Below, piece by piece: positions 6,553-9,621 of a stretch of 64,000 nt of DNA; position 1 is the stretch's first letter; every line of letters begins with the position of its first letter. Source of the stretch: Fodinibius salipaludis (GTDB lineage: Bacteria; Bacteroidota; Rhodothermia; Balneolales; Balneolaceae). The stretch covers positions 124,001 through 188,000 of the forward strand of contig NZ_NSKE01000006.1 of the NCBI RefSeq assembly GCF_002287075.1, written 5' to 3'. The notes under the pieces were generated by a model. That model was not told the origin of the DNA. It worked only from the letters and a program-made list of their open reading frames with translations, and did not search any database. Made by a program: the position numbers and the translations under genes.

Positions 6553-7686
6553 TCAAGATAGGGCAGATATAATTTCTATATCACGGCATTCTTCAAACAT
6601 TGCATCAAATTCATCAATACGCTGTGACCAATCGAGGTGCTTGTTGATGTTTTGCAGGGACGCTTTAGGCAGCGGTTTGGATTCTTCTGTCAATAGATCC
6701 TTGAGATAATGAAAAAGATCGTCTTCGGTATCATACAAAACGGGAGCATGCAGCAAGGGTTTGTGCAGGTTTTCGGGGATCAATTCCGGGTAGTGAAGTC
6801 GATTAGGCACTAACGGGTGACATCCACAATAAATAGCTTCCATGATCGCTACGCAGAAAAACTCGTAGGTTGCCGTAGAAACCACAATATCACCACTGTG
6901 AAGTAATCGGCTGTAGTTTTCACGGTCTTCAACATATCCGAAGTGCGTAATGTGTCGACCGTATCGCTCCCAGGCTTTTTCGAACTCTTCCGGCTTCTCG
7001 TGCTGGGTATCGCCCGCTAAAATTAAATCAAAAGTAAGGTCGATGTCATCAAGACGATTCAACACGCGAAAAAACATGGCGGGGTTGCGATCAAACTGCC
7101 AGCGTTGATTCCAGACAATCACCGGATTATCATTTTCCTTACGCTGATCGGGCTGAGCATCAAAGCGCTTTAAATCAAGTCCGGGATACAGTACCACACT
7201 CTTGCCGGCAATTTTATCCACCGGATAGTAGTATTTGTCATCGGGATAACCTTCCAAAAATTCCGGCAGTGCCTTCAAAAAGTCATCCCTATGGAATTCG
7301 GAGGAGAAAATAAGTCGATCCGCCGAAAGCATGCTTAAATAGTTGAGGTAGCAGTAGGTTTGATCCCGCTCCTCTCCCTCCGGCATTGGCTGAGTAAACT
7401 GATTCTCATGCATATACATTACTTTAGGCACCTCTGAAAAGCGGGGATTTGTCAAAGACAGAAAAGCCGGCAGGTTCGTCATACTGCTGACCAATAGCAG
7501 GTCGATCCCTTCTTCAACCTCCTGAGTCATTCCCGCCAGCACCACCGAATTGCCGTGCATACGCCACTTTCGCCCCTTGTAACTAAGGTTAATCGGGATG
7601 ATATTATGCCGGGAGTATTCTTCCAATCCCTTTAAAAATGCTTTATGCGAACCGCTAAAAAACGGTTCAACGGCCAGAATGTTCAT
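6553..7686 (-). CDS. tRNA-queuosine alpha-mannosyltransferase homologue (DUF3524/QTMAN-type glycosyltransferase)
   Basis: A 377-residue GT-B glycosyltransferase. Its N-terminal half matches what I know of the DUF3524/QTMAN_N domain of vertebrate GTDC1, which mannosylates queuosine in tRNA-Asp: ILAVEPFFSGSHKAFLKGLE, KWRMHGNS, LLVSSMTNLPAFL, and VMYMHENQFTQPMPEGEERD. The C-terminal half has a GT4-like nucleotide-sugar domain (VWNQRWQFDRNPAMFFRVL, STATYEFFCVAIMEAIYCGC with the E-x7-E-type acidic pair). It probably transfers a sugar, likely mannose, to queuosine at tRNA wobble position 34. Bacterial function is inferred from homology. It lies 87 bases downstream of mutL on the same strand. Length is normal for the family. 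Confidence 0.75.
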   Translation of the reverse strand: MNILAVEPFFSGSHKAFLKGLEEYSRHNIIPINLSYKGRKWRMHGNSVVLAGMTQEVEEGIDLLLVSSMTNLPAFLSLTNPRFSEVPKVMYMHENQFTQPMPEGEERDQTYCYLNYLSMLSADRLIFSSEFHRDDFLKALPEFLEGYPDDKYYYPVDKIAGKSVVLYPGLDLKRFDAQPDQRKENDNPVIVWNQRWQFDRNPAMFFRVLNRLDDIDLTFDLILAGDTQHEKPEEFEKAWERYGRHITHFGYVEDRENYSRLLHSGDIVVSTATYEFFCVAIMEAIYCGCHPLVPNRLHYPELIPENLHKPLLHAPVLYDTEDDLFHYLKDLLTEESKPLPKASLQNINKHLDWSQRIDEFDAMFEECRDIEIISALS

Positions 7687-7773: not shown

Positions 7774-9621
7774 TTACCGGAAACGTGCTTCAATATCTTC
7801 GAGTGGAATGTACTCCAACGTAGGTTTATTAAGCGGATCTTTATACGGTTCATCACAGGCGAAAAGCTGATCCAGTAGGTTCTCCATCTCTAAATCAGTC
7901 AGTTTTTTTCCTTTAGGTATGGCCGTTTTTGAAGCAAAAGCAATAGCCAATTTTCGCCGCTCATCAAACTCAAATTTCCCGTCCAAAGCACGGTACTGCT
8001 GCAACATGGATTTCAAAACCGATTGTTCATCTCCCACGTCGATATCCGCCGGCACCCCACTGATCATAGCTGTATTACCGCTCATCAGCTGAATATTAAA
8101 ACCCATTCGTTGGATAATGGGATGCAATTCCTCAAGGAGCGAAAATTCGGAAGCCGAAAAATCCATTGTCTGGGCAAAAAGAAGTTGTTGGGTACTTGGA
8201 ATAGCAGCTTCAGTAGCACTTAATGCCTTTTCAAAAATTATGCGTTTATGTGCTGCATGCTGATCGATCATACACAGCCCGGAACGCGTTTGCGTTAAAA
8301 TATAACGGTCGTGTAGCTGCCAAAATCCTCGGTCGCGCATACGCTGTGGACGATTGTCTTCCTCAGACTCATTTTGTTCCTTTTTCTCAGTCTTATCAAA
8401 ATCGTACAGCTGTTTCGAAAAATTATTTTGGTCCCCTTTTTGTGATTTTGGTCGATCAAAGTTAATCCGTGATGGAAATTTTACCGGCTCTTTCTCTCCT
8501 CTATTTCGCTGTTTATTCTTCGATCCGCCAAAATTAAAATCAGAAGAAAATCCTTTAGAAGAAAAACTGTTTTCCTCATCATTCCTGTCAGAGACATCGG
8601 GAACCATAAATTCTTCGTGCAAGGCTTTTTTTACAACTGATTTTGTGAGTTTAATAACACTTCGCTCATCCTCAAACTTCACTTCCTCCTTGGCGGGATG
8701 CACATTCACATCTACCTGCTTGGGATCAATGTCCAAAAATATGGCATAAAAGGGGTAATCCTTTTCCCCGGTCCAGGCGTCATAAATATTGAGAATAATA
8801 TGAGTGAGATAACGATGTTGTATCGGCCGTCCGTTGACGAATAGAAACTGTTCGCCACGACTTCGTTTCGTTAGCTTGGGATCTGCCAATACCCCGTAAA
8901 CTGTCAAATAGCTGGTTTCCTCCCGGAAGTATATCAGGCTGGCCTTGTAGCTCTTGCCAAACATATCAGTGATACGTTCTTTAATATTTTGCTCTTTTGG
9001 CAAATCGTAAATAGTATCAGTATCGGCAATCATCTCAAATCCCAAATCAGGATTGGCAAGAGCCGCCTGCTGAACCGTTTTCAGGATATGCCGGAATTCT
9101 GTGGCATCAGTTTTCAAAAACTGTCGGCGTGCACGAACATTGTAAAAGAGATTTCGAACTGCTACAGAAGTACCACTTTCTACAGCAGCGGGCTCAAATG
9201 ATTTTTCTTCTCCACCCCAGATCTCATATTTCCATCCCATCTCATCACCGGGACGTTTGGTCTTGAGCGTAACCTGTGATACCGAAGCGATAGAAGCCAT
9301 AGCCTCACCGCGAAACCCAAGAGTGCGGACTTTAAACAGATCATCCACATCCTGTATCTTAGATGTGGCATGCTGCTCAAAACAAAGACGGATATCTTCC
9401 TTCCCCATTCCACTGCCGTTATCTACGACCTGAATAAGCGTGCGTCCAGCATTTTGAATAACAATCTTAAGATGATCGGCACCGGCATCAATGGCATTAT
9501 CCAGTAGTTCCTTAACTACCGAGCTGGGGCGTTGGATGACCTCACCGGCGGCAATTTTATTGGAAATTTCGGGAGGAAGTTCTCGTATGATGGACTGTTC
9601 AGATTCCGTTTCCTGGCTCAA
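7774..9621 (-). CDS. mutL: DNA mismatch repair protein MutL
   Basis: MutL couples MutS mismatch recognition to strand incision and excision. This 615-residue protein has the GHKL ATPase N-terminus: IAAGEVIQRPSSVVKELLDN (ATPase Glu), DNGSGM near residue 65, TLGFRGEA near 105, and the transducer signature FVNGRP near 270. The linker (about 350-430) is rich in K, N, S and D and has low complexity. The C-terminal dimerisation domain contains DQHAAHKRIIFE. In the canonical endonuclease motif DQHA(X)2E(X)4E the first glutamate is replaced here by lysine, and the C-terminal CPHGRP region reads CDEPYKDP, so latent nuclease activity is doubtful. The length is usual. It is preceded by a small gene on the same strand 92 bases upstream. 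Confidence 0.95.
   Translation of the reverse strand: MSQETESEQSIIRELPPEISNKIAAGEVIQRPSSVVKELLDNAIDAGADHLKIVIQNAGRTLIQVVDNGSGMGKEDIRLCFEQHATSKIQDVDDLFKVRTLGFRGEAMASIASVSQVTLKTKRPGDEMGWKYEIWGGEEKSFEPAAVESGTSVAVRNLFYNVRARRQFLKTDATEFRHILKTVQQAALANPDLGFEMIADTDTIYDLPKEQNIKERITDMFGKSYKASLIYFREETSYLTVYGVLADPKLTKRSRGEQFLFVNGRPIQHRYLTHIILNIYDAWTGEKDYPFYAIFLDIDPKQVDVNVHPAKEEVKFEDERSVIKLTKSVVKKALHEEFMVPDVSDRNDEENSFSSKGFSSDFNFGGSKNKQRNRGEKEPVKFPSRINFDRPKSQKGDQNNFSKQLYDFDKTEKKEQNESEEDNRPQRMRDRGFWQLHDRYILTQTRSGLCMIDQHAAHKRIIFEKALSATEAAIPSTQQLLFAQTMDFSASEFSLLEELHPIIQRMGFNIQLMSGNTAMISGVPADIDVGDEQSVLKSMLQQYRALDGKFEFDERRKLAIAFASKTAIPKGKKLTDLEMENLLDQLFACDEPYKDPLNKPTLEYIPLEDIEARFR

Follow-up and report, generated by a model that had tools for sequence, protein, structure and literature searches.

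The chromosomal gene under study, in a 64,000-nucleotide stretch of Fodinibius salipaludis DNA (the window), belongs to the enzyme family of the animal tRNA-queuosine mannosyltransferase QTMAN (GTDC1). Its product of 377 amino acids is a genuine QTMAN-family homologue and a probable glycosyltransferase for queuosine at position 34 (Q34) of tRNA. As an overall explanation we propose, and consider fairly probable, that it is a Q34-tRNA hexosyltransferase acting after TGT, QueA and QueG. In such a pathway, a cytoplasmic retaining GT-B glycosyltransferase of family GT4 would attach a hexose to the queuosine that occupies the wobble position of tRNAs with a GUN anticodon. TGT would put preQ1 into the tRNA, QueA and QueG would then convert preQ1 to queuosine (Q), and the enzyme would finally transfer a sugar to Q, most likely an alpha-mannose with GDP-mannose as the donor. 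The target would most likely be a hydroxyl of the cyclopentene diol of Q in tRNA-Asp, as with animal QTMAN. The parts of this proposal carry different weight: Q34 is the likely acceptor, mannose has an even chance of being the sugar in F. salipaludis itself, and tRNA-Asp as the substrate falls slightly short of even.

Family assignment and predicted structure

The reading frame opens with an ATG codon, and Pfam recognizes two domains in its product (Table 1). The N-terminal domain, PF12038, is matched over positions 1-168 of the 168 positions of the model with 156.1 bits (cut-off 25; E 9.4e-46), which is far outside the range of chance. The DUF3524-type N-terminal domain that the original prediction had claimed is thus present at full length, since we take PF12038 to be the former DUF3524; the present Pfam name of the family is QTMAN_N, 'tRNA-queuosine alpha-mannosyltransferase N-terminal'. 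The C-terminal part matches Glycos_transf_1 (PF00534) with 43.7 bits against a cut-off of 26.4 (E 2.9e-11). The homology to the tRNA-queuosine mannosyltransferase, also claimed originally, holds as far as membership of the Pfam family goes, and a resemblance to vertebrate GTDC1 would follow from the Pfam model and its name. The same family search detected one copy of PF12038 in the F. salipaludis genome (3.58 Mb in 39 contigs, completeness 98.94%) and none in 14 control genomes, E. coli among them. No NCBIfam model reached its cut-off with the protein, the top match being HpsP with 25.7 bits against 550; the models hit weakly describe polysaccharide and thiol glycosyltransferases, each match falling far short of its cut-off, and no curated NCBIfam equivalog for a GT4 enzyme of polysaccharide or exopolysaccharide synthesis scored above threshold. 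Among PDB sequences we found no solved structure of the PF12038 family, a profile search returning four remote chains only.

Table 1. Positions in the window of the glycosyltransferase gene, its domains and conserved residues, and the upstream neighbour
Feature	Position	Strand	Basis
Glycosyltransferase gene (GT4), bacterial QTMAN homologue	6553..7686	minus	ORF, Pfam (PF12038 + Glycos_transf_1), AlphaFold2 model, GT-B fold
QTMAN_N domain, N-terminal, acceptor side, residues 2-170	7177..7683	minus	full-length PF12038 match
Donor (nucleotide-sugar) domain, C-terminal, PF00534, residues 178-309	6760..7155	minus	Pfam
Arg195, invariant	7102..7104	minus	present in 56/56 homologues
E-x7-E motif, Glu275 to Glu283	6838..6864	minus	56-homologue alignment
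mutL, upstream neighbour	7774..9621	minus	Pfam MutL_C + DNA_mis_repair

An AlphaFold2 model calculated with 56 homologues as input (mean pLDDT 93.3, pTM 0.91) predicts a full GT-B glycosyltransferase, in which the catalytic residues are conserved. The GT-B fold spans the whole chain and is matched best by sucrose-phosphate synthase (6kih; Z 32.1, 338 aligned residues, 2.8 A); other matches include MshA (Z 30.0), the methylmannose polysaccharide mannosyltransferase 7qsg (Z 29.5), PimB' (3oka; Z 26.7) and PimA (2gej; Z 25.3). Because the closest solved folds mix GDP-mannose enzymes with UDP-glucose, UDP-GlcNAc and other enzymes, the donor sugar is unreadable from the fold. By analogy with GT4 enzymes in general, Arg195 presumably contacts the donor diphosphate, and we take the E-x7-E motif to be the donor-binding motif of retaining GT4 enzymes; within it, 43 of the 56 homologues carry E and the other 13 carry D at position 275, and 55 have E at position 283. 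In the same alignment, conservation of at least 90% is reached in 34 of the 169 columns of the QTMAN_N domain and in 29 of the 200 columns of the donor side (residues 171-370), with a mean conservation of 0.60 in the acceptor-side domain versus 0.53 in the donor domain. The acceptor-side domain is therefore conserved at least as well as the donor domain, which fits one fixed, common acceptor.

Distribution and gene neighbourhood

PF12038 occurs in 78 of 296 genomes of the phylum, 74 of them, counting F. salipaludis itself, from its class or nearer and the remaining 4 from other parts of the phylum. The 20 genomes listed from the 218 without the domain all fall outside this class, and the presence of PF12038 throughout the class is likely, if not proven. 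At least 577 stretches of DNA were confirmed as belonging to the PF12038 family; among the best 80 of these, the named relatives are mostly from Balneolia and Rhodothermia, others from Chloroflexota and Flavobacteriales, and the nearest are an uncultured Aliifodinibius (91%) and Fodinibius salsisoli (87%). Since PF12038 proteins are widespread among bacteria, the gene in the window is no isolated oddity. Neither the protein nor the profile matched any viral contig in IMG/VR, and there were no matches in plasmids and phages, which speaks against a mobile or viral origin.

For construction of a tree, 81 rows were chosen by hand from the 181 loci with a homologue; two weak matches (G514, G566) and one split match (G519) lie outside it. 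The window type, with 18 rows from the class, forms a single clade (support 100/100), and a second PF12038 subfamily, referred to here as type B, forms a separate clade (100/99). Type B proteins mostly have an insert behind the HENQ motif, carry D in place of the first E and differ from the window type in the surroundings of the active site. Of the 36 genomes listed from the organism's own family, 15 have two PF12038 matches; in this family, type B was seen at loci L015, L010, L007, L013, L016, L017 and L021. Type B may represent a further Q-glycosyltransferase that uses a different sugar or tRNA.

The placement of the gene beside mutL, pointed out in the original prediction, is correct as an adjacency, mutL lying 87 bases upstream and running in the same direction, but it is local, lineage-specific synteny and carries no evident functional information. 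Within two genes of the homologue, mutL is found in 29, DnaB in 25 and a ComF-like phosphoribosyltransferase in 16 of 106 neighbourhoods, several of which are one genome region fetched twice, so that they are not 106 independent cases. The mutL and DnaB neighbours belong to relatives of the same order and ComF to Rhodothermales, and neighbours differ between orders. As named by Pfam on one representative each, the most frequent neighbours have housekeeping roles (mutL, dnaB, icd, uracil-DNA glycosylase and the ComF-like phosphoribosyltransferase). With one representative scanned per gene cluster, no run of glycan genes was seen; 7 of the 106 neighbourhoods have a GT2 glycosyltransferase and 6 a glgC-type gene no more than two genes away. 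Neither TGT nor queA was found within any of the 181 PF12038 loci, 114 of which are longer than 6 kb, and the neighbours thus give no support to a functional linkage. The 64-kb window contains no tRNA genes.

Co-occurrence with queuosine and GDP-mannose genes

The original prediction was to fall if the genome lacked the queuosine pathway. The three genes checked are all there, and the prediction stands on this point: TGT is matched with 9.7e-156 and displays a preQ1-type pocket (LDEC and GGLSVGE), queA is present twice, both copies scoring above the QueA equivalog cut-offs, and QueG is matched with 6.7e-104. A ManC beta-helix domain in a frame of 366 amino acids (1.4e-14), the sole marker examined, indicates probable GDP-mannose synthesis in this genome. 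Across 19 tested genomes of the phylum with PF12038, QueG is present in 18 (absent from G147) and a ManC match in all 19, 18 of these being above the cut-off. The two queA genes of F. salipaludis are divergent (L003:1495-2541 on contig C35 and L004:1495-2496 on contig C23, both on the minus strand), and the second adjoins a gene for a DNA polymerase of the Y family (Pfam IMS). Two queA genes each are likewise found in Fodinibius, Balneola and their nearest relatives (G313-G317), and one each on the Rhodothermia side (G318-G324).

Among 330 Chloroflexota genomes, drawn evenly from those at least 90% complete, PF12038 was found in 43, queA in 187 and TGT in 263 (262 above the cut-off). A simple co-occurrence of PF12038 with queA had been expected and failed here, as queA is present in 14/43 genomes with PF12038 versus 173/287 without, a negative association (Fisher 8e-4). 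The gene that tracks PF12038 is TGT, present in 42/43 versus 221/287 (positive; Fisher 8e-4), with G620 as the exception. Among the 143 Chloroflexota lacking queA, TGT accompanies PF12038 in 29/29 genomes versus 51/114 without PF12038 (Fisher 4e-9), a value that overstates the evidence, since the 29 genomes count as some three lineages: 28 were placed in the tree, 26 of them in a single clade with G403 and G443 apart, and G519 is unplaced. PF12038 was never found in a genome devoid of both queA and TGT among the 330. Dropping G514 and G566, whose PF12038 matches are weak (41-46 bits) and come without a GT1 domain, leaves queA in 12/41 and TGT in 40/41. Weak N-terminal PF12038 matches without a recognized GT donor domain are located at L258:5985-7202 and L259:5354-6484, both in queA-positive Chloroflexota.

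Of the genomes reached via named loci, 29 in number with locus L074 left out, 25 have a queA match, that of G312 being partial. The remaining four are Chloroflexota (G297, G298, G301 and G305), with TGT present in three and absent from G297. PF12038 genomes without a TGT match are accordingly G620, where queA and queG are present, and G297, whose completeness is unstated; as a TGT match is missing in 4 of the 187 queA-positive genomes, G620 included, assembly gaps are possible in these.

QueG scores above its cut-off in 0/29 of the queA-less versus 11/14 of the queA-positive Chloroflexota with PF12038, and the 29 genomes, lacking both genes, would contain Q only through salvage of queuine. The ManC domain is absent in 27 of these 29 and present in 10 of the 14 queA-positive ones, so that the sugar may differ in the genomes without this marker. 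ManC is no specific mark of PF12038 genomes, because 12 of 18 PF12038-lacking Chloroflexota searched also carry the domain (7/9 queA-positive, 5/9 queA-less). An acceptor created by TGT, with Q either made or salvaged, fits the persistence of PF12038 where queA and queG are missing, and the link between the family and TGT in Chloroflexota supports an acceptor at the tRNA wobble base.

Two publications relate the substrate of TGT to its pocket: preQ1 specificity is tied to Cys158 and Val233 (PMC3660597), and queuine-inserting TGTs typically carry GG[LS][AS]G in place of the GGLAVG of the E. coli-type enzyme (PMC11570991). Using alignment to the F. salipaludis TGT, we located the pocket positions by motif in 29/29 queA-less and 3/14 queA-positive PF12038 genomes as well as in 10/12 chosen controls. 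The best-scoring TGT in all 29 queA-less PF12038 genomes features the loop GG-SLG, one residue shorter and free of valine; in sequence it resembles that of queuine-inserting TGTs, having the same length as the published pattern but matching it inexactly. Position 158 is Leu in 27 of these enzymes, Cys being kept in G403 and G443. The canonical pocket is found in F. salipaludis and in the three of the 14 queA-positive PF12038 Chloroflexota that were aligned. It is also found in G298, which has PF12038 and no queA match and is either a contrary case or an incomplete genome. The ten aligned controls, which have TGT and lack both queA and PF12038, show GGLAGDE in eight cases, the canonical loop in one (G407) and GG-SLG in one (G334); as nine of the ten are valine-free too, the altered loop goes with the loss of queA generally and not with PF12038 alone.

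Of the 29 queA-less Chloroflexota with PF12038, 14 have a second, divergent TGT, as does the control G407. Such genes encode the motifs CLDDCTH and GGWPLD (e.g. L203:6104-7231, L200:6140-7315 and L135:292-1461), and G296 has a gene of this type directly downstream of queA. The queuine-releasing gene Qng1 occurs in 72 of the 330 Chloroflexota, in only 3 of the 43 with PF12038 (G299, G403 and G443) and in 2 of the 29 that also lack queA, too few for it to be the general salvage route. In G443, Qng1 lies directly upstream of the short-loop TGT on the same strand, its match ending 56 bases ahead of the TGT match. In G403, a methyltransferase-like gene (L218:7002-7841; Methyltransf_25, 2.9e-8) follows the short-loop TGT after 12 bases, and a further tRNA modification is possible there.

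Candidate acceptors and sugars, and relation to known enzymes

The nearest competing explanation keeps Q34-tRNA as the substrate and lets the sugar (e.g. glucose, GlcNAc or galactose) or the tRNA differ from those of animal QTMAN, so that the product would not be manQ. We regard it as unlikely, though worth serious consideration, as the UDP-glucose and UDP-GlcNAc enzymes among the closest folds, the missing ManC domain in most queA-less PF12038 Chloroflexota and the occurrence of type B beside the window type, as if for two products, all speak for it, whereas the ManC matches in F. salipaludis and 18 tested relatives from the phylum and the mannosyltransferase name of the Pfam family speak for mannose. 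More improbable is a bacterial GT4 enzyme with an altogether different acceptor, be it a small molecule, a lipid or a polysaccharide, to which the QTMAN name was carried over from the animal branch. GT4 acceptors diverge readily, and the sub-threshold NCBIfam matches as well as the occasional GT2 and glgC-type neighbours point in this direction; against it stand the conserved acceptor-side domain, the mostly housekeeping neighbours that change from order to order, the association of PF12038 with TGT in Chloroflexota, the presence of the gene in the 74 members of the class listed with a match, and a tree that groups the 18 rows of the class in one clade.

Very unlikely, finally, is an acceptor such as preQ1 or epoxyqueuosine, that is, another 7-deazaguanine or a nearby anticodon nucleoside. 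It would explain how the gene persists without queA and queG, and it draws on the 29 of 43 PF12038 Chloroflexota in which queA and QueG are missing and TGT is retained, and on the second TGT in about half of them (14). The argument against preQ1 is the short, valine-free loop in the best TGT of every one of these genomes, which in published enzymes goes with queuine and not with preQ1 (PMC11570991, PMC3660597). Glycosylation of Q34 itself remains the explanation that we prefer.

Animal QTMAN, reportedly identified by Zhao et al. in Cell in 2023, and the protein from the window share the full-length N-terminal Pfam domain and a GT4 donor domain, and F. salipaludis has genes for both acceptor and donor in its own genome (tgt, queA, queG and the ManC domain). 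Unlike animals, which are characterized by queuine salvage, this bacterial host has its own queA and queG. The predicted fold is shared over the whole chain with PimA, PimB', MshA, BshA and sucrose-phosphate synthase (Z about 25-32), enzymes with different, well-defined acceptors, although the identity to solved GT4 enzymes is 10-19% in the 50 matches listed. A further decoration of Q34 in bacteria is the work of GluQRS (YadB), an aminoacyl-tRNA-synthetase-like enzyme with tRNA-Asp as its target. The two enzyme classes are unrelated, and GluQRS adds an amino acid, not a sugar. Queuosines that bear a sugar are generally described from animals. A 2020 review describes this attachment of an amino acid to Q34 in bacteria and assigns ManQ and GalQ to eukaryotes, not bacteria (PMC7694415). 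Among the matches listed from titles and abstract openings of the open-licence PMC literature, we found no report of a bacterial sugar-queuosine or manQ, and in that literature no paper on DUF3524.

With the queuosine genes and a sugar-donor marker in one genome, sugar-decorated Q in a bacterium can be stated as a concrete prediction open to test. If bacterial PF12038 enzymes glycosylate Q, the animal enzyme would have a family of bacterial counterparts behind it. We tentatively suggest, at less than even probability, that sugar-decorated Q is an old bacterial wobble modification and that some Chloroflexota run the whole animal-style route of queuine salvage, queuine-type TGT and QTMAN homologue, for which the Qng1-TGT pair of G443 would be an example. 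Genomes without queA that combine a queuine-type TGT with a QTMAN homologue offer a cheap set for testing. Should the proposal prove true, the role of sugar-Q in decoding would be open to study in simple knockout strains, and bacterial tRNA may serve as a source of glycosylated Q.
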